The notes below the pieces were generated by a model. It did no database searches. It was not told the DNA's origin and saw only the letters and a program-made list of their open reading frames with translations. A DNA stretch of 15,961 nt from Lachnospiraceae bacterium (GTDB taxonomy: Bacteria > Bacillota_A > Clostridia > Lachnospirales > Lachnospiraceae): positions 1 to 15,961 of the forward strand of contig JAGADM010000011.1 in assembly GCA_017613595.1 (NCBI GenBank), in the 5' to 3' direction. Made by a program: the position numbers and the translations under genes. Shown here one piece after another: positions 1-15,961 of this stretch; the first letter of the stretch is position 1, and every line of letters begins with the position of its first letter.

Positions 1-108
1 CGCGTCCGAAGGATTCTTCAGGTTATGAAGAGCGATTCGATATATCATATCCGCGTGTTTGCGGATCAAATGTTCTGCTTTTTCGGTACCGATTGTGATG
101 TGGAACAC
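1..108 (-). CDS. ECF-type RNA polymerase sigma factor, N-terminal part (runs off the left edge)
   Basis: The reverse strand encodes about 36 residues containing the core of sigma-70 region 2. The stretch HADMIYRIALHNLKNPSDA (about residues 18-36) matches the helix of extracytoplasmic-function sigma factors that binds the core polymerase clamp. The rest of the gene lies outside the window. The only ordinary start in this frame is GTG at 106-108, because an in-frame stop (116-118) lies just upstream. The strong Shine-Dalgarno GGGAGG directly abuts that GTG, so the true start is uncertain: initiation may occur a few codons in, or at the internal ATG. The gene is divergent from mreB. The specific sigma subfamily and any partner anti-sigma factor cannot be judged from this fragment. 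The family call rests on one motif but that motif is clear. Confidence 0.72.
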   Translation of the reverse strand, partial: MFHITIGTEKAEHLIRKHADMIYRIALHNLKNPSDA

Positions 109-121
109 CTCCCTTCACTTG

Positions 122-133
122 TAATACGTATTA
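122..133. promoter_or_regulatory. 12-bp perfect palindrome upstream of the sigma factor gene
   Basis: TAATACGTATTA reads the same on both strands and sits 14 bp upstream of the sigma factor start, where its promoter should be. It could be an operator for a dimeric regulator, or simply part of an AT-rich -10 region. No bound protein can be named from sequence. Confidence 0.3.
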
Positions 134-178
134 GCATACCCGTTTTCGTGCAGGAAAGCAAAAAAAGTTTTTGTCAGA

Positions 179-207
179 TTGCAAAACTTCATCGCTTCTG
201 TTATTAT
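179..207 (+). promoter_or_regulatory. Probable sigma-A promoter of the mreB operon
   Basis: A -35-like TTGCAA (179-184, 4 of 6 consensus bases) and a -10 TATTAT (202-207, 5 of 6) are separated by exactly 17 bp. Transcription would start near 214, leaving a leader of about 70 nt before mreB. No terminator separates mreB from the following three + strand genes, so this promoter may serve the whole block through comF. Confidence 0.5.
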
Positions 208-208
208 T

Positions 209-256
209 ACAGCGTAGGGGAAACTCTACGCTGTATTTCGTTTGCGTAAAAACGCA
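209..256 (+). other. Two consecutive hairpins in the mreB leader
   Basis: The first inverted repeat, ACAGCGTAG (209-217) with CTACGCTGT (226-234), has nine perfect base pairs and an 8-nt loop. The second, TGCGT (243-247) with ACGCA (252-256), closes on an AAAA tetraloop. Neither is followed by a T-run, so they are not terminators. The first overlaps the predicted transcription start. It could therefore be a DNA operator or a 5'-end RNA stabiliser. Confidence 0.4.
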
Positions 257-281
257 GATTTGAGAAAGGGGAATGCCGAAA

Positions 282-1295: not shown

Positions 1296-1301
1296 CGGTT
1301 T

Positions 1302-3542: not shown

Positions 3543-3627
3543 CGGCGCATTAGTAAGGCCCCGGAAGCGGCGGGGGATGCTCCGCGGAAGGGGGCAATAT
3601 CACACAGTCAGAAAAAGGAGAGTCATT

Positions 3628-4542
3628 ATGGACACAGCACTGGTAGTAATGGCAGCAGGCATGGGCAGCCGGTTCGGGGGAGGAATCAAGCAGCTCGAGC
3701 ATGTAGGACCTAGCGGCGAGATCATCATGGACTATTCCATCTATGCCGCAAAGGAAGCAGGTTTCAACAAGGTCGTATTCATTATCCGAAGAGACCTGGA
3801 AAAGGATTTCCGTGAGATCATCGGAAACCGCATTGAGAAGTACATCGATGTAACTTACGTATTTCAGGAAATGGACAACATTCCGGAAGGATTTACCGTT
3901 CCGGAAGGGCGTAAGAAGCCCTGGGGGACCGGCCAGGCCGTGCTTTCCTGCCTCGGCGTTTTAGATTGTCCGTTCGTTGTCATCAACGCCGATGACTTCT
4001 ATGGAAAGGAAGCTTTCCGCGCGACACACGACTATCTGGTGAGCCTTCCCGAGGGAAGCAAGGGTCAATATTGTATGGCCGGATTTATCCTCGGAAACAC
4101 GTTGAGCGAGAACGGAATGGTTACCCGCGGAGTGTGCGAAGTTAAGGAAGGACGCCTTTCTACTGTTGAAGAATGCTTCTCGCTGAAGAGAGACGGAGAC
4201 GTTGTAACCGGAGAAGACGGTAACGGCAATCCGAAGAAGTTTGATCCGAATATTCCGGTTTCGATGAATTTGTGGGGATTCACACCGGACTTCCTTGATG
4301 AACTGAATAACCGTTTCGCGGACTTCCTCCGTACGGAGGCCGCGGCCAATCCGCTTAAGGCGGAATACCTGCTTCCTCAGATCGTAGGAGAGATGGTTAA
4401 GAGCGGACGCGCATCGGTAGCCGTGCTTCCGACCGTGGACAAATGGTTCGGCGTCACCTATAAAGAGGACAAGCCGCTCTTCGTAGAGTCGATCAACAAG
4501 CTGATCGCCAAAGGAGAGTTCCCGGCTGAGATCTTCCGCTAG
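3628..4542 (+). CDS. Sugar-phosphate nucleotidyltransferase-like protein
   Basis: This 304-residue Rossmann-type NTP-transferase resembles enzymes that join a nucleoside monophosphate from an NTP to a sugar phosphate. The N-terminal nucleotide-binding signature LVVMAAGMGSRFGGGIKQ (about 5-22) ends in the usual lysine. The metal-binding acidic motif NADDFYG (120-126) is present. A conserved C-terminal segment, KWFGVTYKED (about 272-281), matches family members common in Lachnospiraceae. The start at 3628 has a clear GGAG Shine-Dalgarno (AAAAAGGAG, 3612-3620) at proper distance; an upstream in-frame ATG at 3577 lacks one. The natural sugar and nucleotide are not predictable. It is 85 bp from recD2 with no terminator between them, so it may be co-transcribed. 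There is no kinase or choline cluster around it to hint at the substrate. Confidence 0.82.
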   Translation: MDTALVVMAAGMGSRFGGGIKQLEHVGPSGEIIMDYSIYAAKEAGFNKVVFIIRRDLEKDFREIIGNRIEKYIDVTYVFQEMDNIPEGFTVPEGRKKPWGTGQAVLSCLGVLDCPFVVINADDFYGKEAFRATHDYLVSLPEGSKGQYCMAGFILGNTLSENGMVTRGVCEVKEGRLSTVEECFSLKRDGDVVTGEDGNGNPKKFDPNIPVSMNLWGFTPDFLDELNNRFADFLRTEAAANPLKAEYLLPQIVGEMVKSGRASVAVLPTVDKWFGVTYKEDKPLFVESINKLIAKGEFPAEIFR

Positions 4543-4568
4543 GATGACCGAAGATGTATTGAGGTTTT

Positions 4569-5300
4569 ATGAAAAGTGTTTTTGATCTGTTATACCCACC
4601 CCGTTGCCCTGTGTGTGACGGGGTTCGTTTTTCTGATGAACCGGTGTGCTGTCCGCCCTGCCGGGAGAAACTGAGGTTCATCGACGGACCGGCATGCATG
4701 TGCTGCGGCCGGCCGTTACAAAGTGAGGATACGGAGTACTGCTATGACTGCGCCAAGCGGAGACGAAGCTATGAGCGCGGAATCTCGCTCGGTGTCTATG
4801 AGGGAGTGCTGAAGGATTCCGTTCTCCGGTTCAAGTTCTCGGGACGGGAGGAGTATGCTTCCTTCTTCGCGGAATGCCTTGAGGAGCGGTACCGGAAGCA
4901 GATTCACCGCTTCCGTCCGGACGTGATCCTGCCGGTTCCGATGCATAAGCGGAAGGAGCGGAAGCGCGGCTACAACCAGGCGGCGAGTCTTGCGAGGGAG
5001 CTGTCCGCGCTGACCGGTATTCCCGCGGATGAGTCGATTCTTCTCCGTACCCGCTATACTTCGCCGCAGAAGGAATTAAATGATGTCGCGAGACTGCAGA
5101 ACTTATTGAAGGCATTTGCCGTAGAGGAAGATGCCCTTTCGGCATGGAAAAAGGACCACCCGTTTAAAAGGGTGATCCTTGTTGATGACATTTATACGAC
5201 CGGCAGTACGATGGAAGCCTGCGCGTCGCTTCTTAAGCGGGCGGGGGCGGAAGCGGTCATGCCGGTGACAGTCGCCGTCGCGGGCGGATATATGCAGTAG
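4569..5300 (+). CDS. comF: ComF family protein (competence-associated phosphoribosyltransferase)
   Basis: This 243-residue protein is related to ComFC, which helps bring single-stranded DNA into the cytoplasm during transformation, although many non-competent bacteria keep it. The N-terminus has a Cys-rich zinc ribbon: C13 and C16, C27/C28 and C31, C43, C45/C46, C58 and C61. The C-terminal half is a type I phosphoribosyltransferase fold. It has the conserved DVILPVPMHKRKERKRGYNQA region (about 118-138, starting at VI) and the PRPP-binding loop VILVDDIYTTGST (202-214). GAGG at 4561-4564 serves as ribosome binding site. No ComFA helicase or ComE/ComG genes are in the window, so an actual role in DNA uptake is unproven. 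A hairpin inside codons for about residues 195-204 looks like the terminator of the opposing gene cvfB. Confidence 0.92.
   Translation: MKSVFDLLYPPRCPVCDGVRFSDEPVCCPPCREKLRFIDGPACMCCGRPLQSEDTEYCYDCAKRRRSYERGISLGVYEGVLKDSVLRFKFSGREEYASFFAECLEERYRKQIHRFRPDVILPVPMHKRKERKRGYNQAASLARELSALTGIPADESILLRTRYTSPQKELNDVARLQNLLKAFAVEEDALSAWKKDHPFKRVILVDDIYTTGSTMEACASLLKRAGAEAVMPVTVAVAGGYMQ
5148..5178 (-). terminator. Probable intrinsic terminator of cvfB, embedded in comF
   Basis: Read on the - strand, GGATCACCC (5178-5170) pairs with GGGTGGTCC (5161-5153) around an 8-nt loop. It is followed directly by five T's (5152-5148). All nine positions pair on the - strand with one G-U wobble. On the + strand the same position becomes a C-A mismatch and there is no T-run after it. 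This asymmetry says the structure works for leftward transcription, that is for cvfB, whose stop codon lies about 200 nt upstream. Confidence 0.62.
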
Positions 5301-5380
5301 AATGCGGTACATGTTGCGACGGAGTTGTGTAATCATCGAGCCGCTAAACGGAATGTGTCCGGTATCAAGCCGGCCGGTTC

Positions 5381-6217
5381 TTACTGCTCCGTAAGCCTTA
5401 TGCCGTCCTCTTCAATCGTGATGAGGCGGTTCTTATAGAGGTTTCCGACGGCGCGTTTGAAAGCAGCCTTACTCAGGCAGAAACGCGTCTTGATATCTTC
5501 GGCGCTGCTCTTATCGTTAAACGGAAGGAATCCGCCGGCGCCCTTTAGTGAAGAAAGGATCAGCTTCGCGTCGGAATCCATCTGCACGTGCGCTTTTTCG
5601 CGAAGCGAGAGTGTCAGTTTGCCGTCCGGAAGAACCCTCGCAACTCTTGCCTCGACCAGCTGGCCGGAGCGGAGCGGGTAGGGAAGATCGTCCTTCGGAA
5701 CGAGCGCGGAATATTCATTGTCAACCGCGACAAATGCGCCGAAGTTCCGGCTCACATCGTATACGACGCCGGACACGCGGTCGTCCTTTTTATACGGCGA
5801 ATCCGTATGCAGGTATTCGTAAACCTTCATCGTCGAGCACAGGCGGCTGCTCTTATCAACATAGAGGGAGACGAGAACTTCGTCGCCTTCCTTCAGCGCG
5901 CGCGTCTGCTCATGGAAAGGAAGGAACAGGTTCTTGGCAAGTCCCCAGTCGAGGAAGGCACCGATCTTGTTCACCTGTACGACCGGAAGAACGGCAATGC
6001 CGCCGATTTCGAGAGCAGGAATCTGCTTGGTCGCGATGATACGGTCCTCGGAATCCTTATAGATGAATACCGTGACGGTATCGCCGGGCTTTTCACCGGC
6101 GAGCTGATTCTTCGGCAGAAGCACCTGCTCCGCGGGATTATCGTCCGCTTTCAGGTAGGCTCCGTGCTCAGTGATACGTTCTATTGTAAGATCCTGTTTC
6201 TTTCCGAGTTCTATCAT
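5381..6217 (-). CDS. cvfB: CvfB/YitL-type S1 RNA-binding protein
   Basis: This 278-residue cytoplasmic RNA-binding protein belongs to the CvfB family, in which the S. aureus member affects virulence-gene expression. The layout fits the known architecture. Three S1-like OB domains come first: about 1-62, about 67-135 (with NKIGAFLDWGLAKNLFLP) and about 145-207 (with SRNFGAFVAVDNEYSALVP). A winged-helix domain follows at about 215-278, containing CLSKAAFKRAVGNLYKNRLI. The full domain set and typical length are present. The start ATG has AAAGGAG upstream at good spacing. It is transcribed alone on the - strand, from its own promoter at 6251-6279, towards comF. It is one of only two - strand genes seen. 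RNA targets cannot be inferred. Confidence 0.93.
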   Translation of the reverse strand: MIELGKKQDLTIERITEHGAYLKADDNPAEQVLLPKNQLAGEKPGDTVTVFIYKDSEDRIIATKQIPALEIGGIAVLPVVQVNKIGAFLDWGLAKNLFLPFHEQTRALKEGDEVLVSLYVDKSSRLCSTMKVYEYLHTDSPYKKDDRVSGVVYDVSRNFGAFVAVDNEYSALVPKDDLPYPLRSGQLVEARVARVLPDGKLTLSLREKAHVQMDSDAKLILSSLKGAGGFLPFNDKSSAEDIKTRFCLSKAAFKRAVGNLYKNRLITIEEDGIRLTEQ

Positions 6218-6250
6218 TGTCCGCTCCTTTTCCTGTTCCGTAACGCCTGT

Positions 6251-6279
6251 AGTATAGCATACTTATCAGAAGAAATCCA
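6251..6279 (-). promoter_or_regulatory. Extended -10 promoter of cvfB
   Basis: On the - strand TGCTATACT gives a TGn extension plus a near-consensus -10 (TATACT, complement of 6251-6256). The -35 position, TGGATT (complement of 6274-6279, 17 bp away), is weak at 3 of 6, as expected for an extended -10 promoter. Transcription would begin near 6244, about 27 nt before the start codon. Confidence 0.6.
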
Positions 6280-6300
6280 TACGCGGAACAGATTTCCTCC

Positions 6301-6329
6301 TTGAGAAAAGGGTGGAGCCGTGATACAAT
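6301..6329 (+). promoter_or_regulatory. Strong sigma-A promoter of the CPBP protease gene
   Basis: TTGAGA (6301-6306, 5 of 6) and TACAAT (6324-6329, 5 of 6) are spaced by exactly 17 bp, with a TG extension at 6321-6322. The start site would be near 6336. This rules out upstream start codons for the gene at 6361 and places it divergent from cvfB. Confidence 0.75.
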
Positions 6330-6360
6330 GAATAAGCACGACGAGGGGAGGAGCATTTTC

Positions 6361-7296
6361 ATGAAATCGAGAGAGACGGCACATGTGAATCTGGCGTTTT
6401 TACTGACGGCAATCGTGTACCTTTCGGTCTCTTTCTGCATTGAACTCTGGTCGCTCGCGACGAAGTCGGAACTGCCGTTTCCGGCGCTCATCATCATAAG
6501 CCAGCTCGGGCTTTTCGCCGTACCGTTTCTGTACGCGGTTAAGCGGGGCAATATCGGAGAGAATCTCGGCTTTCATAAGATTTCGGTCGGAACAGGCATT
6601 CTTGTCGTTCTGCTGATGATCTGTCTTGAGCCGGTGCTTACTCTTATCAACGCGCTTTCACAGTGTTTCGTGGATGCCCCGACGACCGAGATGATCACCG
6701 AGAACGCGAAGATTTATCCGTTCCCCGTGATGTTTCTTCTTGTGGCGCTCATGCCCGCGATCTGTGAGGAGATCATCTACCGCGGCGTGTTCTTCCAGAC
6801 GTACCGGAAGGAAGCGGTGATTCCGGGCGCGCTGCTTTCGGCGTTTCTGTTCGGTGTCCTGCATGGGAATCTGAACCAGTTTGCATATACTTTCTTTATG
6901 GGATTTATCATCGCGCTGACCGTGTATGTGACGAAGTCAATCCTTGCGGGAATGCTGATGCATCTGACCGTGAACGGATTGTCAACCATACTGCTTTATG
7001 TTTTGCAGAAGTCCCAAAGTCTGCAGGAGCAGGTGGCCGAAGTGCAGGAGACAACAGAGCAGTTTACGGTTGTCGGCGTGATCAGCGATTACGGATTCAT
7101 GGCGTTCTTCGGCGGATTGCTGGCATACATTCTGTTCCAGGCCATCGCGAGAAAGTGCGGCACCTGGAGAGAACTCGGCGAAGCGTTCCGTGCGGAAGGC
7201 AAGACAAAGGCCTTCTTCGGTATGTTTACGTGGCCGCTTATCGCTGCCGTTGCGGTTATGATCGGTCTGATGGTATTAAGTGAGTTTGCGAAATAG
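6361..7296 (+). CDS. CPBP family intramembrane glutamic endopeptidase (CAAX/ABI type)
   Basis: This 311-residue multi-pass membrane protein has the three signature motifs of the CPBP (Abi/Rce1-like) protease family. The first is EEIIYRG (136-142), with the catalytic glutamate pair. The second is FGVLHGNLNQF (about 164-174), with the first conserved histidine. The third is HLTVN (201-205). Hydrophobic segments flank these, roughly 10-30, 43-60, 77-98, 121-135, 152-167, 175-195, 205-216, 237-261 and 287-306. A soluble charged stretch (about 217-236) and a longer C-terminal membrane tail follow the catalytic core. The start at 6361 is set by GGGGAGGAG (6345-6353) and the promoter just upstream. 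Relatives act in bacteriocin self-immunity or protein maturation, but no bacteriocin genes are nearby and the substrate is unknown. It may share its transcript with trxB, since no terminator separates them. Confidence 0.88.
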   Translation: MKSRETAHVNLAFLLTAIVYLSVSFCIELWSLATKSELPFPALIIISQLGLFAVPFLYAVKRGNIGENLGFHKISVGTGILVVLLMICLEPVLTLINALSQCFVDAPTTEMITENAKIYPFPVMFLLVALMPAICEEIIYRGVFFQTYRKEAVIPGALLSAFLFGVLHGNLNQFAYTFFMGFIIALTVYVTKSILAGMLMHLTVNGLSTILLYVLQKSQSLQEQVAEVQETTEQFTVVGVISDYGFMAFFGGLLAYILFQAIARKCGTWRELGEAFRAEGKTKAFFGMFTWPLIAAVAVMIGLMVLSEFAK

Positions 7297-7311
7297 AATA
7301 ATACGAAGGAA

Positions 7312-7332
7312 TAAGGCCTTGCGCGGGCCTTA
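7312..7332 (+). other. Inverted repeat in the CPBP-trxB gap
   Basis: TAAGGCC (7312-7318) and GGCCTTA (7326-7332) form a perfect 7-bp stem with a 7-nt loop, just before the trxB ribosome binding site. No T-run follows on either strand, so it is probably not a terminator. It may protect or segment the mRNA. Confidence 0.35.
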
Positions 7333-7353
7333 CGGAAAAGGAGATAAAGTATC

Positions 7354-8271
7354 ATGTATGATGTTGTGATTATCGGATCCGGTCCGGCCGGAATGGCCGC
7401 GGCAGTATATGCCGCGCGTGCCGAACTCACATTTGTCGTAGTGGAAAAGGATATGAGCGGCGGTCAGATTCTCGAAACATCTGAGATTGACAATTACCCG
7501 GGGTATCCTTCCATCAGCGGATTCGAGCTGGCGGACAGGTTTCGCGAGCATGCCGAGGCGTGCGGCACCGAGATTATCGAGAATATCACGATCGAAGATT
7601 TCCGAAAGATCGACGGCGGTTATGAACTCGTATTTGACGGCAATAAGACGATGGAGACGAAGACAATCCTGATCGCGACCGGTGCAAGGCCGAGAAGACT
7701 CGGCTGTCCGGGCGAAGAGGAACTGACCGGTGCGGGTGTGTCCTACTGCGCGACCTGCGACGGCGCGTTCTTCAAGGGACGTGATGTCATCGTTGTCGGC
7801 GGCGGAAATACGGCGGTTGAGGACGCGATATTCCTTGCGCGCGGCTGTAAGAGCGTAACGCTTATACACCGCAGGGATTCGCTTCGTGCTTCCCGCAATC
7901 TCGTGACCAAGCTGAAGAGTCTTCCGAATGTCGAAATCATATGGGACAGCACTGTAGAGCGCATCTACGGAAACGGCATGGTGGAGTCCGTGCTTCTTAA
8001 GAACGTGAAGACCGGCGAGCTGACCGATCGGAAAGCAAACGGCGTCTTCGTGGCAGTCGGAACGAAGCCGAGCAACCTCGGCTGGCAGGACAAGATTCCC
8101 TGTGATGAGGGTGGATATTTCATCGCCGGAGAGAACTGCGAGACGCAGGTTCCCGGAATCTTCGCGGCGGGCGATGTCCGTACGAAGAGCCTTCGTCAGG
8201 TAATCACGGCGGCGGCCGACGGCGCCAACGCAATCTACCGGATTGAGCAGTATCTGGCGGAACAGGAATAA
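7354..8271 (+). CDS. trxB: Thioredoxin-disulfide reductase
   Basis: This 305-residue low-molecular-weight thioredoxin reductase passes electrons from NADPH through FAD to the disulfide of thioredoxin. The FAD-binding glycine motif IIGSGPAGMAAAVYAARA starts at residue 6. The redox-active CATC (132-135) sits between the two nucleotide-binding lobes. The NADPH domain has VVGGGNTAVEDA (147-158) and the phosphate-binding HRRDSLRA (172-179), so the enzyme looks NADPH-dependent. It does not look like one of the ferredoxin- or flavin-linked variants found in some Clostridia that lack these motifs. The C-terminal FAD motif GIFAAGDVRTKSLRQVITA (268-286) is intact. AAAAGGAG precedes the ATG. No thioredoxin gene is adjacent. 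The gene ends just before two tandem terminators. Confidence 0.96.
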   Translation: MYDVVIIGSGPAGMAAAVYAARAELTFVVVEKDMSGGQILETSEIDNYPGYPSISGFELADRFREHAEACGTEIIENITIEDFRKIDGGYELVFDGNKTMETKTILIATGARPRRLGCPGEEELTGAGVSYCATCDGAFFKGRDVIVVGGGNTAVEDAIFLARGCKSVTLIHRRDSLRASRNLVTKLKSLPNVEIIWDSTVERIYGNGMVESVLLKNVKTGELTDRKANGVFVAVGTKPSNLGWQDKIPCDEGGYFIAGENCETQVPGIFAAGDVRTKSLRQVITAAADGANAIYRIEQYLAEQE

Positions 8272-8278
8272 GAATGCG

Positions 8279-8307
8279 GCCCCGGCCGGGAACGGTCCGG
8301 GGCTTTT
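8279..8307 (+). terminator. Intrinsic terminator 1 after trxB
   Basis: GCCCCGG (8279-8285) pairs with CCGGGGC (8297-8303). An inner CCG/CGG stem extends it, capped by a GGAA tetraloop with one bulged T, and TTTT follows. It is very GC-rich and sits eight bases after the trxB stop. Confidence 0.88.
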
Positions 8308-8314
8308 CAGAAAG

Positions 8315-8410
8315 ATTAAGGTCGGCCTTTTGCTGGCCTTTTTGTTATATGCGGGGCTTCTTGCCGGCTGCGGTGAAGAAAGACATGCAGATGGGACGGA
8401 CTCCGATTGA
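8315..8410 (+). pseudogene. Lipoprotein-signal-like reading frame without a usable start
   Basis: In the frame ending at TGA 8408-8410 the translation has a basic start (RKIK), a hydrophobic core (VGLLLAFLLYAG) and a perfect lipobox LLAGC with the cysteine codon at 8369-8371. A short polar tail, GEERHADGTDSD, follows. This is the profile of a lipoprotein signal peptide. There is no ATG, GTG or TTG at the right place; only ATT (8315) or a TTG inside the hydrophobic core is available. The segment also overlaps terminator 2. It is best read as a decayed 5' end of a lipoprotein gene, or as a coincidence. Confidence 0.25.
8318..8343 (+). terminator. Intrinsic terminator 2 after trxB
   Basis: AAGGTCGGC (8318-8326) pairs over all nine positions, two of them G-U, with GCTGGCCTT (8332-8340). 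The loop is CTTTT and more T's follow to 8343. It backs up the first terminator eleven bases upstream. Confidence 0.7.
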
Positions 8411-8434
8411 CTATGAAGAAAGCGAGGTACGGCT

Positions 8435-9859
8435 GTGACAACAAGAGAAGAAGCGCTTGCGTACGGATTGTCCTTTCCGGACACTTATCAGGACGCGCCG
8501 TTCCATGACGCGAACTGGCAGCTTGCGCGATACAAAGGCAATAAGAAGGCGTTCCTCTGGACATACGAGAAGGACGGCTTTGTGAACCTGAACCTGAAGA
8601 CGGCCCCGGACAGAGCGTATTTTCTTCGGGCACGCTACAGCGCGGTCCGTCCGGCGTATCATCAGAACAAGGATCACTGGATCACGGTCATTCTCGACGG
8701 AAGCATCCCGGACGAAGAGGTGCGGATGATGATCGCGGAAAGTTACGACCTGATCTCGGATAATCCGACGAAACGGATCTACGAAGCGGTGAAGAAGATC
8801 CCGTACGGCCGTGTAGCCACCTACGGACAGATCGCCGCGCTCGCGGGCAACCCGCGGATGTCGCGCGCGGTCGGAAACGCGCTTCACAAGAATCCGGACC
8901 CCGACGGCATTCCGTGCTACCGCGTCGTGAACGCGCAGGGAAGGCTCGCGGAGGCATTTGTCTTCGGCGGGGTAAATGTGCAGGAACGGCTTTTGAAAGA
9001 GGAGGGTGTCGAGGTGACGGACGGGATTGTGAACCTTTCGAAGTTTCAATGGAAGCAGCGCAAGCTGTTCTTTACGGACCTCGATGAGACGCTTCTTACT
9101 TCGGATAAGAAGGTGTCGCCTTTAACCTATGAAGAACTGAAGAAATACTCGGAGCGGGGCAACAGCCTGGTGATCGCGTCGGGGCGGAGCCTTCACAGCG
9201 CGATGAGTGTGCAGAAGGAACTGGGGCTTGATTTCCCCGATAGCTACATTGTCGCGTCAAACGGTTGTCTGATCTATGACTGTGCGAAGAAGGAGACGAT
9301 CTTCCGGGCGGGCGTACCGCTTCCGGTTGTCGCGGAGATATTCCGGATGGCGCGTGAGCAGGGCATGTATGTGCAGACATACACCGATGACCGGATCATC
9401 GCGCCGGGCGAGACGGAGGAGCTTGCGCGTTACAGTAAGTTCGTGCGCACGCCGATCCTTCTTGCGGCCGACCCGATTCCGCATCTTGATAAACCGCCGT
9501 GCAAGGTTCTTTCGATTGAACTGCATGACCATGAGAAACAGGAGCGTTTCCGCGCGTCCGTAACGGAGCGGTTCGGAGACGTGATCGATACGATGTATTC
9601 GTCGCCGTATTACCTTGAGATCATTCCGAAGGGCTGCGGCAAAGGACAAGCGGCCGTAAGACTTGCGGAGCATCTCGGAATCCCGGTCAGCGACACATTT
9701 GCTGCCGGTGATGAGGAAAATGATATCAGCATGATTGAAATGACCGGCCTCGGTATCGCCATGTGTAACGGCAAAGAGGAGGTCCGCCGCGCGGCTGACG
9801 CGGTAACCGGAGAGGACAACAACCATGACGGTCTTGTGCCGTTTATCAGAAACATGTAG
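8435..9859 (+). CDS. Three-domain fusion: YjbR/MmcQ + MGMT-like + Cof-type HAD phosphatase
   Basis: This is a 474-residue composite protein. Residues 1-109 are a MmcQ/YjbR (DUF419) domain, shown by VNLNLKTAPDRAYFLR and HQNKDHWITVILDG. Residues about 111-206 are an alkyltransferase-like domain: a DNA-binding helix with RVATYGQIAALAGNPR, the RAVGNALHKNP segment with the conserved arginine (R144), then PCYR (160-163). Standard MGMT has PCHR, so the acceptor cysteine (C161) is kept while the catalytic histidine is tyrosine. ATL proteins instead lose the cysteine. Residues about 208-474 form a Cof-type HAD hydrolase: DLDETL (215-220, catalytic D215/D217), IASGR (247-251), K403 and GDEEND (425-430). 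The join at 206-210 is abrupt, as if a stop between two genes was lost. The GTG start has GAGGT six bases upstream. YjbR-MGMT fusions are, as I recall, known in Firmicutes; adding HAD appears unusual. Confidence 0.88.
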   Translation: MTTREEALAYGLSFPDTYQDAPFHDANWQLARYKGNKKAFLWTYEKDGFVNLNLKTAPDRAYFLRARYSAVRPAYHQNKDHWITVILDGSIPDEEVRMMIAESYDLISDNPTKRIYEAVKKIPYGRVATYGQIAALAGNPRMSRAVGNALHKNPDPDGIPCYRVVNAQGRLAEAFVFGGVNVQERLLKEEGVEVTDGIVNLSKFQWKQRKLFFTDLDETLLTSDKKVSPLTYEELKKYSERGNSLVIASGRSLHSAMSVQKELGLDFPDSYIVASNGCLIYDCAKKETIFRAGVPLPVVAEIFRMAREQGMYVQTYTDDRIIAPGETEELARYSKFVRTPILLAADPIPHLDKPPCKVLSIELHDHEKQERFRASVTERFGDVIDTMYSSPYYLEIIPKGCGKGQAAVRLAEHLGIPVSDTFAAGDEENDISMIEMTGLGIAMCNGKEEVRRAADAVTGEDNNHDGLVPFIRNM

Positions 9860-9890
9860 CATAGCGGAGTGCCGCGGAAAGGAACAAACC

Positions 9891-10637
9891 ATGGCAGCAG
9901 ATATTTCGGTAGTCATTCCGGCCCATAACGAAGAGGCCTATATAGAGCGATGTATCCGCTCCGTGAAACGGTCGGACAGGGAGTTCGCGGGAACCACGGA
10001 AATCGTGGTTGTGTGCAACCGCTGTACGGACCGCACGGCGGAGATTGCGGAAGCGTGCGGCGCGAAGGTTGTGTATAACGAAGACCGGTGCATCGCAAAG
10101 GTACGTAACGCGGGAATCCTTGCGGCTTCCGGCCGGATCATCGTGACTATCGATGCCGACAACCGCATGACCAAAGGAACGCTTTCGGAAATCAGTGAAC
10201 TGCTTGCCTCCGGCAAAGTGATCGGCGGAGGAGCTCCGATCCGGTTTGAACGGTATTCTTTCCCGCTGTGGCTCAATGACCTGATGGTCCGCGCGGCAGG
10301 AGCACTGACCGGTTTATACAGCGGCATCTTCTACGCGGAGCGGGATACGTTCATTCTGATCGGGGGTTTTGTCGATCAGAAGGCCATGGAGGACGTCGCC
10401 ACCGCGAAGAAGCTTCGGAAGCTCGGGCAGGAGAGAGGACTTTCCTATACAACGCTTAAGAAGAATTATCTGCTGAATTCCACCCGCAAATACGACGACC
10501 TGGGAGACTGGCTCTACTTTAAGCTTTTGATCAAAAACGCCGGCACATTTGTCCGTGCCGCCTTCGGTGACCGGAGCGGAGTAGACCGTCTTTTGGATGA
10601 ATTGTTCTACGATTACAACGATAATCACGTGAAGTAG
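9891..10637 (+). CDS. Family 2 glycosyltransferase
   Basis: This 248-residue GT-A fold enzyme transfers a sugar from a nucleotide donor. The N-terminal VVIPAHNEEAYIERCI (7-22) is the classic GT2 opening. IVTIDADNRM (about 85-94) holds the metal-binding DxD. MEDVATAKKLRKLG (about 167-180) lies where the acceptor-side ED motif is expected. No transmembrane helices are obvious, so it is a soluble or peripheral enzyme. AAAGGAA upstream of 9891 fixes the start; the reading frame is open further upstream but that part overlaps the fusion gene. It follows the fusion gene by 31 bp and is likely co-transcribed. The acceptor is unknown and no surface-polysaccharide cluster surrounds it. Confidence 0.88.
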   Translation: MAADISVVIPAHNEEAYIERCIRSVKRSDREFAGTTEIVVVCNRCTDRTAEIAEACGAKVVYNEDRCIAKVRNAGILAASGRIIVTIDADNRMTKGTLSEISELLASGKVIGGGAPIRFERYSFPLWLNDLMVRAAGALTGLYSGIFYAERDTFILIGGFVDQKAMEDVATAKKLRKLGQERGLSYTTLKKNYLLNSTRKYDDLGDWLYFKLLIKNAGTFVRAAFGDRSGVDRLLDELFYDYNDNHVK

Positions 10638-10704
10638 TCTGACAATTTCGATTTTAACAAAAACCGAAAAATATATTGACAAACATCGATTTCGCCATCT
10701 TGCA

Positions 10705-10730
10705 CAAATTTGCCGAAATTGCAAATTTGC
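10705..10730. repeat. Direct repeat CAAATTTGC, two copies 17 bp apart
   Basis: CAAATTTGC occurs at 10705-10713 and 10722-10730. The second copy lies in the perfect 10-bp palindrome GCAAATTTGC (10721-10730). It flanks the DnaA-box cluster on its left and could be a protein-binding or easily melted element. Confidence 0.35.
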
Positions 10731-10745
10731 TCTTGACAGCGGAAT

Positions 10746-10846
10746 TGTGGATAATTTTCCTGAAAAGGGGAGTTATCGACAGTGGATAAATGCAAAAATG
10801 GCGGTATTTTCCTATGTTTTCCACAAAATTATCCACTTTATCCACA
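10746..10846. promoter_or_regulatory. Cluster of six DnaA-box-like sites
   Basis: Compared with the DnaA box TTATCCACA, this stretch has: 10746-10754 on the - strand (perfect); 10773-10781 + (TTATCGACA, one mismatch); 10781-10789 - (TTATCCACT, one mismatch); 10817-10825 + (TTTTCCACA, fits the relaxed consensus); 10829-10837 + (TTATCCACT, one mismatch); and 10838-10846 + (perfect). The second and third form a near-palindrome sharing one base. The last two abut head to tail. Six such 9-mers in 101 bp is far above chance. The strand layout (+ genes on both sides) and the lack of dnaA/dnaN argue for a DnaA-titration or regulatory cluster rather than the chromosomal origin. Confidence 0.75.
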
Positions 10847-10941
10847 ATATCGTTCCATTTTTGTAGTATGTTGAGACCCCTGAACTGTCGAAAGTTTGTT
10901 TTGTGAAAAAGGTAAAAAATGAGGTTTTTGCACGAATTTCG

Positions 10942-10959
10942 AGTGAAAAATATTTCACT
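10942..10959. repeat. Inverted repeat AGTGAAA-N4-TTTCACT
   Basis: A perfect 7-bp inverted repeat (10942-10948 and 10953-10959) with an AATA centre sits between the DnaA boxes and the next promoter. There is no T-run on either side that would suggest termination. It is a possible operator. Confidence 0.35.
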
Positions 10960-11071
10960 TAATTGTCAGATAATTGCAGAAAATTAACCGTATTTTGCTT
11001 TTTTCATTTCCTGCCTTTGGGTTTTACCGGAAAATGACACATATTCCGTAATATGAGCGGATTCCTGACAG

Positions 11072-11109
11072 ACCGCTGCGAAATGCCTTTGCATTGTCGG
11101 AGCGGTTTT
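11072..11109 (+). terminator. Long hairpin with T-run upstream of the four-gene operon
   Basis: ACCGCT-G-CGA-AATGC (11072-11086) pairs with GCATT-G-TCG-G-AGCGGT (11091-11106) around a CTTT loop. That gives 14 base pairs, one mismatch and one bulged G, with TTTT at 11106-11109. It probably stops transcripts from the left, including the glycosyltransferase mRNA, which has no closer terminator. Confidence 0.55.
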
Positions 11110-11117
11110 GCTATATT
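11088..11117 (+). promoter_or_regulatory. Extended -10 promoter of the four-gene operon
   Basis: TGCTATATT (11109-11117) combines a TGn extension with -10 TATATT (5 of 6). TTTGCA (11088-11093, 4 of 6) lies 18 bp upstream. The -35 is inside the preceding terminator hairpin. Transcription would begin near 11124, so the gene's ATG at 11191 rather than an upstream TTG (11122) is the likely start. The leader contains a CCGCGCG/CGCGCGG hairpin (11142-11161). Confidence 0.55.
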
Positions 11118-11190
11118 GTAATTGGGAGAATTTAAGTTGTTCCGCGCGGGTGTGCGCGCGGAGGTTCGGCAGATTGCGAAAGGACAGCGT

Positions 11191-11460
11191 ATGGATAAGA
11201 GTCAGCTGATGGCATATATCGGGCAGATTGTCCGCGTCGCGAAGGATGAGACGCAGGCAGGGCTGTTACTCAGCCAGCTCGAAGAGATGCTTAAAAAAGA
11301 CACAAGCGATGAAGAGCAGCTCGCACTTGTGCGCGGGCTTCAGAACTGTGTCACCGACCTGCTGGCGCTTCCGAAGGACAAGCCGGTCAACGAGGAGGTA
11401 CTGCTTTTAGCATACCGCCGTTCGATGGAGCGCAAGGTCCGCACGCAGTTATTCGGTTAA
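11191..11460 (+). CDS. Small helical protein of unknown function
   Basis: I do not recognise this 89-residue protein. It is rich in charged and leucine residues, lacks a signal peptide or membrane segment and reads as mostly alpha-helical, for example AGLLLSQLEEMLKK (23-36) and EVLLLAYRRSMERKVRTQL (69-87). The start at 11191 is supported by AAAGGA six bases upstream. The frame is open back to a TTG at 11122 but that would coincide with the predicted transcription start. It is first in the operon and lies four bases before the leucine-rich repeat gene, so it may be an accessory or assembly subunit of the ATPase/metallopeptidase module downstream. That role is inferred from position only. Confidence 0.72.
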   Translation: MDKSQLMAYIGQIVRVAKDETQAGLLLSQLEEMLKKDTSDEEQLALVRGLQNCVTDLLALPKDKPVNEEVLLLAYRRSMERKVRTQLFG

Positions 11461-11464
11461 CACT

Positions 11465-12448
11465 ATGTATGCGTATGTAGATGAACAATACACCATCGCG
11501 GATGAGTGCATCTTCGCTTATTCCGGAAATGAGGAAGCCGTTCGCGTCCCGACGAGTACGGGCGACGGACATCCCCTTTCGGCAATCGGCAAAGGTGCCT
11601 ATTACGGTGCGGAACAGATGAAGAAACTGACGATCACCAACGGCATCGAATCCGTTGGTGATTATGCGTTCAAAATGTGTTCCTCTCTGGAGGAGGTTAT
11701 TGTTGCGCCGACGGTTGTCGAGTGCGGCGAGCGGCCGTTCCAGTCGTGCCGGAAACTCCGTTCGGTAAGGTTCTTCCTCGATCTGATGGAAGACGAGATG
11801 AAGGAACTCACGGCGCACAGCTTCGCGCTTTCGGACGGGCGCTTTCTGATCGCAGACCGCGAGGAGAAGCTGTCCTATATGCACGCAGCCTATGAGATGA
11901 CGAGAGACATGGGCATCCGTCCGGTCGGCATCCGTCCCGAGATGGAGACGCTGTTTCTGGTGCGGAACGTCAATGTGAGCACGGGACAGGAGGCGCTCGG
12001 CGTCTCGAAACAGACTATGACATTTGCCGGCTGCTATGTCGGCAACAATGAGAAGGATATATTCCTGCACGCGGCCGACCCGAAGAAGAGCAAGTGTGTC
12101 GATTCCATCACGGAGGGGCTGTGCGACATGATGTCGAAACTCGGCGAGCAGAGGCTTAACATGCTCGAGGAGTCGGTGTTCCTGACCTTCGGAAAGCCCG
12201 AGCAGCAGAACGGGATCTACCGGCTTATGATTGACGCGAGGAAGAGTTTCTGTTTCTTCCAGTCCGCGCAGCCGGTGACGTACGGCGGCGAGAAATATTA
12301 CATTTACTGCCGGAATTTTCCGACCAATGATGAGACGTGCCGATACTACCGCCAGGAGGCGGAGGTGCTCCGCGCGGACGGCGGTTACGTTCCGGAAGAT
12401 ATCCGGAAGTCGGTTTACGCCAAATACAAGCTGATCACGGGGTTCTGA
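11465..12448 (+). CDS. Cytoplasmic BspA-type leucine-rich repeat protein
   Basis: This 327-residue protein has about three 23-residue repeats of the BspA/LRR_5 type at roughly 40-104. The units carry patterns such as IGKGAYYGAEQMKKLTI and VGDYAFKMCSSLEEVIV. The remaining two-thirds (105-327) is a globular region I cannot assign; it contains several cysteines and aromatic segments (SFCFFQ, KYYIYCRNF). There is no signal peptide or anchor, unlike most BspA-type proteins, so it should act inside the cell. It has no clear Shine-Dalgarno and follows the previous stop by four bases, suggesting coupled translation. Its place before a VWA-metallopeptidase and a MoxR ATPase suggests a recognition or adaptor subunit, which is inference. 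Confidence 0.78.
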   Translation: MYAYVDEQYTIADECIFAYSGNEEAVRVPTSTGDGHPLSAIGKGAYYGAEQMKKLTITNGIESVGDYAFKMCSSLEEVIVAPTVVECGERPFQSCRKLRSVRFFLDLMEDEMKELTAHSFALSDGRFLIADREEKLSYMHAAYEMTRDMGIRPVGIRPEMETLFLVRNVNVSTGQEALGVSKQTMTFAGCYVGNNEKDIFLHAADPKKSKCVDSITEGLCDMMSKLGEQRLNMLEESVFLTFGKPEQQNGIYRLMIDARKSFCFFQSAQPVTYGGEKYYIYCRNFPTNDETCRYYRQEAEVLRADGGYVPEDIRKSVYAKYKLITGF

Positions 12449-12542
12449 CGAAGCCCGGTTTACGGCAGATGATACAGAAAAACGGGACCGGTGACGGGCA
12501 GCGTCATCGGGATAAGAAAACGCAGCACGGGAGATATAACAG

Positions 12543-13775
12543 ATGTCGGAAGTGGCGGATGAAATTCGAAAACTCTGCATGACGACGGTAAGACGCGCGC
12601 CGTTTTACGGGGATATCCTTGTGTCCGTTTCGTTTGAGGAAGACCGCTCCGTACAGACGGCGGTGACCGACGGATTGAAGATCCGCTATAACCCGGATTA
12701 TCTCGGCGCGCTGTCCGCGGGCGAGCGGAATTATATCATTATGCATGAAGTCATGCATGTCCTTCTCCGGCACCCGATGCGAGGAAAGAACCGCCGGCCC
12801 GATATCTGGAACGCGGCGGCGGATTACATCGTCAATTCGATACTCGACTGGGATGTGCGTCCGGTCATGATGAAGATCGGTATTCCGTTCGACCGGCCGA
12901 AGGACGGCCTGTTCGCGGAAGTGGACCGCATGCAGTCCGTGGAAACGTTATATGACTGTGTCCTTCGGGATAATCCCGAGCCGAGCGAGGACGGCACCCT
13001 TGTGGGGCGCACGACCTACCGCGAGGGACTGACCGGCGAAGGCCGCATCGTTCACGCGCCGGAGCGCGATGTGGACGAACCGGCCGAAATGTCGAAGCAG
13101 CAGGAAGCACTTCTTGAGGAGAAGACAAAGGCGCTTTTACGGCGGGCGGCCAAGCAGGGCAACGGCAGTTATGCTATCCCGCCGCAGCTTGCGCAGATAC
13201 TGGATACGAAGAAGCCGGACTGGCGCGTTTTGATGAGGGATTTCCTCGATGCCGAGATCAAAGAGGAAGTGTCCTACGCGACGCCGGAACGCAAGTATTT
13301 TCATATGGATCTGATCCTGCCGGGACATCCGACCGAGGAAGAGGACCTCGAAGAACTGTGGGCATTTGTCGACTCCTCGGGTTCGATCGGCAAGGAAAGA
13401 ATGGATGTGTTCCTGACACAGCTGTACCGGATTTCGAAGGAGTTCCAGTGCATCATCAACCTGTGTTTCTGGGACACGCAGGTAACGGATGTGTACCGCA
13501 AGGTGCGCGGCGAGAAGAACCTCTTAAAATGCACGCCGTCGCATTCGGGCGGAACCGACGTGAACTGCATCTATGACTGGATCGCGGCCAACAAGGTCCG
13601 CCCCGAGGTAATGCTGATTTTAACGGACGGCGAGTTCGGTCCGCTCGATCCGAAACGGTTCCTGCCGTATCTTCGGCGGAACACGCTTCTGGTTCTCTCG
13701 GAAGAGACCGAACCGACCGAAGATATGAAACGCATGGGCAAGGTTGCATGGTTAAAGGAAAGCAGAGTACGGTAA
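12543..13775 (+). CDS. VWA-like domain metallopeptidase (DUF2201 family)
   Basis: This 410-residue protein combines an N-terminal putative zinc metallopeptidase with a C-terminal von Willebrand A-like domain. HEVMH (68-72) is an HExxH zinc/catalytic motif, and the following segment with NAAADYIVNS (90-99) may supply a further ligand (D94). The VWA part begins near 273. It has DSSGS (277-281), T338 in GGTD, and D362 in LTDGEF, the three pieces of a metal-ion-dependent adhesion site. The central 140-220 region is charged and probably flexible. There is no signal peptide. GGGAGA precedes the ATG. The MoxR-type ATPase starts 21 bp after its stop. Such ATPase/VWA pairs are known as remodelling or metal-insertion chaperones; the substrate here is unknown. 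Confidence 0.88.
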   Translation: MSEVADEIRKLCMTTVRRAPFYGDILVSVSFEEDRSVQTAVTDGLKIRYNPDYLGALSAGERNYIIMHEVMHVLLRHPMRGKNRRPDIWNAAADYIVNSILDWDVRPVMMKIGIPFDRPKDGLFAEVDRMQSVETLYDCVLRDNPEPSEDGTLVGRTTYREGLTGEGRIVHAPERDVDEPAEMSKQQEALLEEKTKALLRRAAKQGNGSYAIPPQLAQILDTKKPDWRVLMRDFLDAEIKEEVSYATPERKYFHMDLILPGHPTEEEDLEELWAFVDSSGSIGKERMDVFLTQLYRISKEFQCIINLCFWDTQVTDVYRKVRGEKNLLKCTPSHSGGTDVNCIYDWIAANKVRPEVMLILTDGEFGPLDPKRFLPYLRRNTLLVLSEETEPTEDMKRMGKVAWLKESRVR

Positions 13776-13796
13776 CTTCTGCGGAAAGGGAATTTT

Positions 13797-14894
13797 ATGA
13801 CAATCAGAGAATTTGCGGAGACGATTGAATTTAACCTGAAATACAATCTGAAATATACCATTCTCGGACTCGGCGCGCCAGGTATCGGCAAATCCGAGAT
13901 CATCCGCCAGATCGGAGCCAAATACGGCTACAAGGTTATCGATATCCGTCTGGCGCAGATGTCCGAAGTCGAGATCAGCGGACTGATTTATCCGAATGCC
14001 GACCGCACCAAGACGATCTGGCTTTCCCCGGAAGTACTGCCGGACGAGAAGCGTGATGGTCCGAAGACCATCCTTCTTCTCGATGAGATCACGTCGTGTA
14101 CGAAGCGCGTGCAGGTAGCCGCTTACCAGCTGATCCTCGACCGCCGCATCGGACAGTACATGCTTCCCGAGGGGACAATCGTCATCGCGCTCGGTAACCG
14201 CGAGGACGACGACGGCGTATACATCCGTCTCGCGGGACCTCTTGCCGATCGATTTGAGATCCATTACATCGAGCCTGATTTCGAGACCTGGAAGAAGGAT
14301 TTCGCGATTCCGCACGGCGTCCACAAATTTGTCATGGATTACCTGACCGTCAAGCCCGAAGCGCTGCATACGCAGGTGCCGGGCGACAGCAACATCGTAT
14401 TTGCCACACCTCGTTCGTGGACGAGAGTCAGTGATATCCTGAAATACGACTGCAACGTGGACAGCATGATCGTCCAGCATAAGATCGTCGGCAACATCGG
14501 CGAGAAGGAAGGACTGCAGTTCATTGAGTACTGCAAGAACCAGGAGAAGCTTGTCAGCGCCGACGAATTCATGTACCGCGGAGCATCTGCGCCGGAGCAT
14601 CCGGACGAACTTTACATCCTTGTGAACGGTATCGTCAACAAGGCATCGTTCCTCGGAACGGTCCGCTCCGTTGACGAGCTCTCGGATGAGCAGCAGAAGA
14701 CCGTGCAGGACGTGCTTCGCGCCCTGTTCCGCCTGACCAAGGCGGAGTTTATCGTAATGGGTCTTAGGAACCTTTTACAGATGAACCGCAGTGTCGTGAA
14801 AGCCATCTACCTTGAACTCGACGACGAGAACTGCCTGCGCTTCATACACGCCAACTGGTACGCGCTCGGCATGGACGAGGTCATGATGCAGTAA
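13797..14894 (+). CDS. MoxR-type AAA+ ATPase
   Basis: This 365-residue AAA+ ATPase of the MoxR/dynein-related group is expected to form a ring and use ATP to remodel a partner. Walker A is GAPGIGKS (26-33) and Walker B is TILLLDE (91-97). Sensor 1 is the asparagine of ALGNRE (131-136). GPLADRFEIHY (147-157) supplies the arginine-finger region typical of MoxR proteins. The remaining C-terminal half (about 160-365) is a helical extension without a recognised motif. The Shine-Dalgarno AAAGGGA lies upstream of the ATG. It is last in the operon, after its VWA partner, and the strong terminator follows 23 bp later. The usual gene order puts the MoxR gene first; here it is reversed. Confidence 0.92.
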   Translation: MTIREFAETIEFNLKYNLKYTILGLGAPGIGKSEIIRQIGAKYGYKVIDIRLAQMSEVEISGLIYPNADRTKTIWLSPEVLPDEKRDGPKTILLLDEITSCTKRVQVAAYQLILDRRIGQYMLPEGTIVIALGNREDDDGVYIRLAGPLADRFEIHYIEPDFETWKKDFAIPHGVHKFVMDYLTVKPEALHTQVPGDSNIVFATPRSWTRVSDILKYDCNVDSMIVQHKIVGNIGEKEGLQFIEYCKNQEKLVSADEFMYRGASAPEHPDELYILVNGIVNKASFLGTVRSVDELSDEQQKTVQDVLRALFRLTKAEFIVMGLRNLLQMNRSVVKAIYLELDDENCLRFIHANWYALGMDEVMMQ

Positions 14895-14917
14895 ATGATA
14901 TGGAAAATGACAGATTC

Positions 14918-14945
14918 GGGCCGCTCTTACGGGCGGCCCTTTTTT
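14918..14945 (+). terminator. Intrinsic terminator of the four-gene operon
   Basis: GGGCCGCTC (14918-14926) pairs fully, with one G-U, with GGGCGGCCC (14931-14939). The loop is TTAC and six T's follow (14940-14945). It separates the AAA+ operon from ppdK. Confidence 0.93.
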
Positions 14946-14959
14946 CATGGGAAACTGTG

Positions 14960-15024
14960 CTTAACGCCGGTTTTGCGGAAAGATGTCCGCATTTGTGACA
15001 AGTTACCATACAAAGCGCGTTAAG
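14960..15024. repeat. Nested inverted repeats upstream of the ppdK promoter
   Basis: The outer pair is CTTAACGC (14960-14967) and GCGTTAAG (15017-15024). The inner pair is TGCGGA (14974-14979) and TCCGCA (14986-14991). Both are perfect. A third short palindrome, TTTTCA-AG-TGAAAA (15042-15055), sits just before the -35. No coding capacity is apparent. They may be regulator sites for ppdK or a structured small transcript. Confidence 0.4.
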
Positions 15025-15060
15025 ATATCTGTTTTTCTACGTTTTCAAGTGAAAAAAAGT

Positions 15061-15089
15061 TTGTATTGTTTCTGTCTGTATGATAGAAT
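15061..15089 (+). promoter_or_regulatory. Sigma-A promoter of ppdK
   Basis: TTGTAT (15061-15066) and TAGAAT (15084-15089) have a 17-bp spacer with a TG extension at 15081-15082. Upstream A/T tracts (15032-15058) resemble an UP element, as expected for a highly expressed gene. The start site would be near 15096, leaving a leader of about 120 nt. Confidence 0.7.
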
Positions 15090-15125
15090 GTCCTCAGCGG
15101 CTGTTCACAGACGTTTCTTTTGCGT

Positions 15126-15152
15126 GTGCATTTCGCGCCCGCGAAATGGCAC
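15126..15152 (+). other. Stable hairpin in the ppdK leader
   Basis: GTG-CATTTCGC (15126-15136) pairs with GCGAAATG-G-CAC (15141-15152) around a GCCC loop. That gives eleven base pairs with one bulged G. No T-run follows. It lies about 65 nt before the start codon and could stabilise or regulate the mRNA; it matches no riboswitch I recognise. Confidence 0.5.
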
Positions 15153-15216
15153 GGATCGCCTATTGTGGAGAAGGCATACGACGGACAGCTCAGAAAACAG
15201 AGGAGGTCATAAATAT

Positions 15217-15961
15217 ATGGCTAAGAAATGGGTATATGCATTTACCGAAGGTAATGCAGACATGAGAAACCTGCTCGGCGGCAAGGGCGCGAACCTCGCT
15301 GAGATGACGAACATCGGTCTTCCGGTGCCGCAGGGTTTCACAATCACGACGGAAGCCTGCACGCAGTATTATGATGACGGGCGCAAGATTAATGATGAGA
15401 TTATGGCGCAGGCTATGGAAGGCGTTAAGCGCATGGAGGAGATCAACGGCAAGAAGTTCGGCGATCTTCAGAATCCGCTTCTCGTATCGGTTCGTTCCGG
15501 TGCACGCGCATCCATGCCGGGTATGATGGATACCATCCTGAACCTCGGTCTTAACGACAAGGTAGTTGCAGCGATGATCGCCGGCAACCCCGACCCGAAG
15601 TTCAAGAGATTCGTATATGACTCTTACCGCCGTTTCATCCAGATGTTCTCGGATGTTGTAATGGGCGTAGGTAAGAAGTATTTCGAGCAGCTTATCGACA
15701 AGATGAAAGAGGAAAAGGGCGTACAGTACGACGTTGACCTCACCGCTGTTGACCTTAAGAAACTCGCTGAGCAGTTCAAGGCTGAGTACAAGAAGCAGCT
15801 CGGCAAGGAATTCCCTTCCGATCCGGTTGAGCAGCTCAAACTCGCGATCGAAGCCGTATTCCGCTCTTGGGATAACCCGCGTGCGAACGTATACCGCCGT
15901 GACAACGATATCCCTTACAGCTGGGGAACGGCCGTATCGGTTATGCCCATGGTATTCGGTA
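15217..15961 (+). CDS. ppdK: Pyruvate, phosphate dikinase, N-terminal part (runs off the right edge)
   Basis: The first 248 residues of PPDK are present. The full-length enzyme is normally close to 880 residues. It interconverts ATP, phosphate and pyruvate with AMP, pyrophosphate and phosphoenolpyruvate, often serving glycolysis or gluconeogenesis in anaerobes. The visible part is the start of the ATP-grasp nucleotide-binding domain. LLGGKGANLAEMTNIGLPVP (about 18-37) and the basic/glycine stretch SVRSGARASMPGMMDTILN (about 90-108) are both diagnostic of PPDK. The frame stays open to the window end. AGGAGG (15201-15206) lies ten bases before the ATG. Codon use looks cleaner than in the neighbouring genes, consistent with high expression. 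It has its own promoter and is separated from the AAA+ operon by a terminator. Confidence 0.97.
   Translation, partial: MAKKWVYAFTEGNADMRNLLGGKGANLAEMTNIGLPVPQGFTITTEACTQYYDDGRKINDEIMAQAMEGVKRMEEINGKKFGDLQNPLLVSVRSGARASMPGMMDTILNLGLNDKVVAAMIAGNPDPKFKRFVYDSYRRFIQMFSDVVMGVGKKYFEQLIDKMKEEKGVQYDVDLTAVDLKKLAEQFKAEYKKQLGKEFPSDPVEQLKLAIEAVFRSWDNPRANVYRRDNDIPYSWGTAVSVMPMVFG

Follow-up and report, generated by a model that had tools for sequence, protein, structure and literature searches.

A conserved composite DnaA-box element away from dnaA in Lachnospiraceae, with a probable role in replication control

Introduction

What is a dense cluster of DnaA boxes doing in an intergenic gap that has neither dnaA nor dnaN beside it? 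This question is raised by a 15,961-nucleotide stretch of a Lachnospiraceae genome (assembly GCA_017613595.1, contig JAGADM010000011.1, positions 1 to 15,961; hereafter the window). A preliminary description of this DNA had offered three candidate roles for the cluster: a DnaA reservoir, a replication-linked switch for the downstream operon, or an unusual or secondary origin.

Work on other bacteria gives some orientation. Deletion of six DnaA-box clusters of Bacillus subtilis leads to early initiation (PMC5295017, PMC13220808), and a 2017 review describes these clusters as having no significant role, with a strong phenotype only when all six are removed (PMC5295017). Outside oriC, the leading DnaA regions in B. 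subtilis are listed as ywcI/vpr, gcp/ydiF, trmE/jag, ywlC, yqeG/sda, and yydA (PMC4447404). In Escherichia coli, hydrolysis of DnaA-bound ATP is promoted by datA, whose boxes share one direction and keep set distances to an IHF site; clusters of B. subtilis and Streptomyces have been described in a review as analogous to datA (PMC5742627). According to a 2026 review, B. subtilis has no Hda, SeqA, IHF, datA, or DARS, and whether it has any regulators of DnaA nucleotide state is called unknown (PMC13220808).

Results

The box cluster is part of a larger composite element

Six DnaA-type 9-mers lie at 10746-10846, each identical to TTATCCACA or one base away from it, and the preliminary description had placed all of them correctly (Table 1). 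Its further details also hold: two of the boxes are perfect (TTATCCACA at both ends of the cluster), two abut head to tail (starts 10829 and 10838), and two form a 17-bp near-palindrome (10773-10789). The 9-mers match TTWTNCACA with up to one mismatch allowed, which is the DnaA-box consensus in use for clostridia. When boxes are counted at no more than one mismatch to TTATCCACA, the gap (10638-11190) contains six, whereas 2000 dinucleotide shuffles averaged 0.14; four shuffles gave two boxes within 101 bp and none gave more, so that the several close boxes seen here are well above chance. On the 245-kb contig of the closest relative (G001), the orthologous cluster is the densest present, with six boxes within 110 bp.

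Table 1. Features of the window in and around the composite element.
Feature	Coordinates	Strand	Remarks
GT2 glycosyltransferase gene	9825-10637		Left of the gap
DnaA box TTATCCACA, inverted	10746-10754	-	71 bp before the triple array
Composite element as matched by profile R1	10769-10922	+	77.2 bits, model positions 5-155 of 159
Box A, TTATCGACA	10773-10781	+	
DnaA-like box TTATCCACT	10781-10789	-	Near-palindrome partner of box A
Triple array, pattern TTWTNCACANNNTTATNCACNTTATNCACA	10817-10846	+	Boxes at 10817, 10829, and 10838, head to tail, spacers of 3 and 0 bp
First box of triple array, TTTTCCACA	10817-10825	+	
Second box of triple array, TTATCCACT	10829-10837	+	
Third box of triple array, TTATCCACA	10838-10846	+	
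Motif CGAAAGTTTGTTTTGT	10889-10904	+	TGTTTTG starts 80 bp past array start; proposed partner-protein site, LexA-box-like
A-rich tail GGTAAAAAAT	10911-10920	+	Where the weak family consensus AAA falls (about 99-101 bp past array start)
Promoter-like pair TTTGCA-18-TATATT	11088-11117	+	Before the 89-aa gene, 271 bp past array start; similar DNA aligned in L001-L005
89-aa gene	11191-11460	+	Right of the gap; start set at a conserved ATG, listed ORF begins at 11122
LRR_5 protein gene	11465-12448	+	
DUF2201/VWA protein gene	12543-13775	+	Putative metallopeptidase/VWA
AAA ATPase gene	13797-14894	+	

The cluster belongs to a larger composite element, made of box A, the triple array, and a motif CGAA-N5-GTTTTGT about 80 bp past the array start; the conserved unit reaches to about 10922, past the six boxes of the preliminary description. 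Its geometry was read from 66 sequences with the array at no more than two mismatches: the window, the orthologous loci of five relatives (L001-L005), and 20 plus 40 further loci, a non-random sample drawn from search matches (the 40 taken in the order listed, apart from one at a contig start). Thirteen were dropped, five of them located before a DnaB_2-type gene (L073, L075, L087, L096, L097) and eight with neighbours that were not recognised (L089, L091, L101, L103, L108, L109, L114, L121). This left 53 loci, by an exclusion that is imperfect, as L101 later turned out to be near full length by profile (59.8 bits).

A counterpart of box A, on the + strand and with at most one mismatch, stands 44 to 40 bp before the array start in 41 of the 53 loci. 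The inverted boxes recur less often: the one at -71 in six loci (the window, L001, L002, L003, L063, L065), and the one at -36 that makes the near-palindrome with box A in three only (the window, L001, L003). The core of the far motif, [TC]GTTTTG, was found at +60 to +100 from the array start in 37 loci, 33 of which have it at +78 to +81 and the rest at +69, +69, +70, and +91. These outliers are roughly one helical turn away from the main position. Such a shift suggests contact between two proteins over a phased spacer. Four more loci carry one-letter variants (AGTTTTG or CGTTCTG) at +78 to +80, and 12 have neither motif nor variant at +60 to +100. In ungapped register, the array holds 1.68 bits per column versus 0.23 for the spacer (+30 to +69).

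The wider consensus of the far motif is approximately CGAA[ACT]-N4-GTTTTGT, with A-rich DNA near +99. A loose form of it occurs twice in 320.8 kb of G001 and six times in 420 kb of a one-contig genome (G107), once at the element in each case; given this rarity in the sequence scanned, we rejected the idea that it is a common operator. The best-kept DNA in the alignment of the window with L001-L005 includes the box array and a downstream block, GTCGAAAGTTTGTTTTGTG. An inverted DnaA-box-like 9-mer, TTTTTCACA, overlaps the far motif in the window (10902-10910); 9-mers resembling it are found at the far motif of L058 and L063, and the family consensus has no such requirement.

Distribution in the family and the genus

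The five relatives are MAG contigs titled Lachnospiraceae bacterium or Lachnoclostridium, recovered by a protein search in which their DUF2201/VWA proteins were 80-97% identical to that of the window. Alignment of the gap across them, as the preliminary description had proposed, bears out the conservation of the boxes: all five have the cluster in the same gap, with three (L005) to seven (L004) boxes.

A DNA search of 397 family genomes gave matches in 65, and most of the matches listed were centred on window positions 10816-10851. The triple array itself (box, 3 bp, box, box, at no more than one mismatch) was detected in 193 of the 397 genomes, against none for a reversed-pattern control. Some of the 204 genomes where this strict array is absent may hold looser copies, because many copies within the window's genus were found by profile with two or three mismatches. 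The profile (R1) is a sequence-only model of the whole element built from 33 copies, among them the window itself. Of the 22 genus genomes, 21 have the element by this profile, at E values of 6.6e-10 or better, the weakest match being that of G403 (model positions 6-132). The remaining genome (G406) gave a partial match only (1.3e-5), which falls at a DnaB_2-type locus; in this genome the VWA gene begins 323 bases from a contig end.

Two other recurring arrays were observed. One class lies 107-203 bp before a primosome-type gene with a DnaB_2 domain (PF07261), at the five loci named above; about 2 kb from such an array, two genomes (G396 and G324) encode an AAA ATPase with a weak DnaA-family score, possibly dnaI. 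DnaA may thus control a helicase-loading operon in Lachnospiraceae. The other is TTATCCACAAAGATATCCACATTATTCACA, present in three genomes (L089, L091, and L248, at G270:C1:3574654) with profile scores of 25.6-26.9 bits, and none of the genes recognised at the other loci lie next to it.

The genes around the element change

To the right of the gap in the window, the 89-aa gene, whose product has no match in NCBIfam or Pfam, is the first of a run with the LRR_5, DUF2201/VWA, and AAA ATPase genes (11191-14894). The VWA gene of this run was found in 6 of 22 genus genomes. Further left, a single ORF (8435-9859) joins a YjbR domain, a methylguanine-DNA methyltransferase DNA-binding domain, and a Cof-type HAD phosphatase.

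Across the family, hpf lies downstream in the same orientation at 35 of the 53 loci, 156-620 bp past the array start, and it is still co-oriented downstream in the seven loci with a divergent secA. A tblastn search with two reference proteins did not find hpf at the other 18 loci, which include the window and L001-L005 as well as L085, where the sequence ends 117 bp past the array start and hpf is not judgeable. Within the genus, the next recognised gene after the element is secA in 15 of 21 genomes and the 89-aa gene in six, co-oriented and 275-764 bp downstream of each full copy (for L218 and L223 the element values come from the profile results, the range of the per-locus table having missed the element there).

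At secA-type loci the gene order is recD2-NTP transferase-comF-cvfB-CPBP-(trxB)-element-secA-prfB. Seven of ten such stretches examined have both cvfB and CPBP on the left flank (L235-L240, L242); L241 has CPBP only, L244 trxB only, and L233 neither. The window type has the left flank of the secA type, but the 89-aa gene on its right, and we infer that the window element is the positional orthologue of the secA-type element with its right-hand neighbours changed. Two of the relatives (G001 and G004) have decayed copies before secA elsewhere in the genome, scoring 25.8 and 27.3 bits and lacking the far motif. G005 has two tandem copies before secA in addition to one at the 89-aa gene; the tandem copies are at L233 9746-10217, about 320 bp apart.

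Since the element is retained at the place that secA has left and has decayed at the place to which secA moved, a promoter role for secA or hpf is hard to argue. An operator specific to the window's operon is likewise disfavoured, because the same element precedes hpf or secA elsewhere. The downstream-operon switch of the preliminary description is thereby weakened, the element being followed by secA instead in most genomes of the genus.

Position relative to dnaA and GC skew

Could the cluster nevertheless be a secondary or unusual replication origin? It is AT-rich and dense in boxes, two of them adjacent and head to tail, and the six boxes in 110 bp of G001 (at no more than one mismatch) compare with two in each cluster beside dnaA in the same genome. 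GC skew points the other way. It is positive on both sides of the cluster in the window and at 24 of 25 ten-kb steps along the 245-kb contig of G001, the exception being 60-70 kb from the element. In G001-G005, the genomes to which L001-L005 belong, dnaA is on contigs other than that of the element, and skew along the dnaA loci passes from negative to positive, clearly in four and weakly in one (L006); on the dnaA contig of G001 it flips at dnaA. G107 was sampled in 20-kb pieces: the ten taken up to 1.64 Mb have positive skew, and the ten from 1.8 Mb onwards have negative skew. The sign thus changes at dnaA (position 22) and within the interval 1.64-1.80 Mb, and not at the site of the element (3,407,918). 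Over the 20 kb that surround the element in G107, skew is uneven and both signs occur among the 2-kb steps, probably owing to gene direction. The skew check proposed in the preliminary description thus shows no sign change at the site in the window or the relatives, and places the element away from the replication origin in the latter.

Immediately past the array, the DNA is similar between genomes of the genus but not across the family, so that no trio repeats are conserved at that place, and we rejected trio repeats there. Taken with the skew, this makes an origin, which the preliminary description had kept among its candidates, highly improbable.

We searched for dnaA in 15 genomes. It is on the contig of the element in six and on a different contig in eight; in the fifteenth (G324), the only array found was of the DnaB_2 class. 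The same-contig distances are 182 kb (G107), 236 kb (G270), 371 kb (G350), 470 kb (G396), 688 kb (G326), and 985 kb (G051). In all six the element lies within about 15% of the genome length of dnaA (0.18-0.99 Mb), although these origin-side positions share ancestry and are not independent. The profile scores are 68-86 bits for G107, G350, G270, and G396 (the copies of G107, G350, and G396 were in the profile model), 41 bits over its length for G326, and 41 bits for G051, where only box A and the array match.

Discussion

At the sequence level we see boxes, a recurring geometry, conservation, a change of neighbours, and, in relatives, no origin signature. In our view the cluster is probably the core of a conserved, non-origin replication-control element of Lachnospiraceae. 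That DnaA binds it, that a partner protein takes part, and that initiation is affected are predictions. Among the three roles initially proposed, a DnaA reservoir or DnaA-control function is the best supported: the boxes are conserved, and the element outlives its neighbours and lies away from dnaA in the relatives checked. Box A and the head-to-tail triple array would be occupied by DnaA in a cooperative manner. At CGAA-N5-GTTTTGT, some four helical turns beyond the array, a second protein would be bound and would contact the DnaA complex. On the origin side of the chromosome, the element would be copied early, soon after initiation; it would then draw off free DnaA, or alter the nucleotide state of DnaA as datA does in E. 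coli, and re-initiation would thereby be restrained. Titration, datA-like hydrolysis, and DARS-like exchange are candidate routes that present sequence data do not tell apart.

The main rival to replication control is a transcription switch, where DnaA would act as a transcription factor and the element would tie the downstream gene (commonly hpf, for ribosome hibernation, and here the 89-aa gene) to DnaA activity. It stays alive because a co-oriented gene follows every copy whose downstream gene was recognised. The arrangement after hpf-type copies (35 of 35 loci where hpf was found, including the seven with divergent secA) and after the genus copies is that of a transcription-control region, which counts against replication control. 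There is also a precedent, as DnaA of B. subtilis activates sda and appears to repress several genes (PMC4447404), and TTGAC, perhaps a -35 hexamer, is found at +115 to +165 in 36 of the 53 loci. This TTGAC is nevertheless in none of the six window-type loci, and in the window the boxes lie about 240-340 bp ahead of the promoter-like pair; the scan for such pairs gave two, versus 1.7 in shuffles. Moreover, the downstream gene varies between hpf, secA, the 89-aa gene, and a gene with no Pfam match, the copies beside secA have decayed in G001 and G004, and PF16321, the C-terminal family of the long ribosome hibernation factor, was found in three of five genomes searched and not in G001 or G003, two MAGs of the window's genus in which the element is present. 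On balance, we think transcription control unlikely to be the main role.

A further rival is an SOS-linked element, in which LexA would bind the +80 motif and couple DNA damage to the DnaA boxes. The motif does share the geometry of LexA-type boxes before lexA and recA in relatives, and a matrix built from 23 such upstream boxes scored above 8 in 30 of 52 element windows versus 3 of 312 control windows. The element median of 9.1 is however well below that of the source boxes (median 19.7, lowest 12.5), which were picked by consensus and are high by construction; on a scale set by CGAAC-N4-GTTCG-like palindromes at the strength of the organism's own boxes, the element scores are intermediate. 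Only 15 of 37 loci have C as the fifth base of the left half, and the right half reads GTTTTG in those 37 by requirement of the pattern, with GTTCTG in L104. We consider an SOS-linked element very unlikely, with LexA as one candidate for the protein at the +80 motif. Another reading is that DnaA does not use the sites, the conserved DNA being a structured RNA or the operator of another regulator. The element is intergenic and its DnaA sites are predicted from sequence, as such a reading would have it. Yet the 9-mers fit the clostridial consensus. No Rfam family matches at the gathering score or at E 0.5, and the fold energy is ordinary (z -1.2, with 20 of 200 shuffles folding as well), on which grounds we rejected a structured RNA; a search for tRNA and tmRNA found none. 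We consider this reading highly improbable.

DnaA-box clusters outside oriC are already known as a kind, and the composite with a phased second motif is a variant of these. The clusters of B. subtilis resemble it in having boxes grouped away from oriC. The main ones are sited at other genes, with yvyD and secA absent from the main text of PMC4447404, and the accounts compared (PMC5295017, PMC13220808, PMC4447404) make no mention of a phased second motif. Same-direction boxes also recall minimal datA, a non-coding locus near oriC whose essential boxes point in one direction at an optimised distance from the site of a second protein, IHF (PMC5742627). Box A and the triple array are all on the + strand, but the window also has two inverted boxes, and any of these may be among the essential ones. 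As far as a comparison by description rather than by sequence goes, the two loci differ in that the second motif of the Lachnospiraceae element is beyond the boxes, not between them. DARS1 and DARS2 of E. coli share with it a three-box core with constant spacing and a flanking regulatory region (PMC5742627), but box I of DARS is opposite to boxes II and III, and the conserved array boxes here all face the same way. The bipartite oriC of Firmicutes (rpmH-dnaA-dnaN) is similar in its clustered DnaA boxes in AT-rich DNA; the element differs from it in having no adjoining dnaA or dnaN, no skew flip in relatives, and no conserved stretch at the place of the trio repeats.

The element is kept where hpf is absent and where secA has changed place, which suggests that it is important in its own right. 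We found no earlier report of it in the open-licence literature, most subscription journals being outside this scope. Tentatively, and going beyond replication control in general, it may be a dedicated DnaA-regulating locus of Lachnospiraceae, a Gram-positive counterpart of datA or DARS; the DnaA complex there would be switched on or off by a sequence-specific partner, bound in helical phase some 80 bp from where the array begins. If true, Firmicutes would have their first known locus of this kind built on a fixed two-protein architecture, as far as literature searches show. A conserved box element with a phased second motif in this large gut family would offer a concrete DNA target for the regulation of DnaA nucleotide state in Firmicutes.
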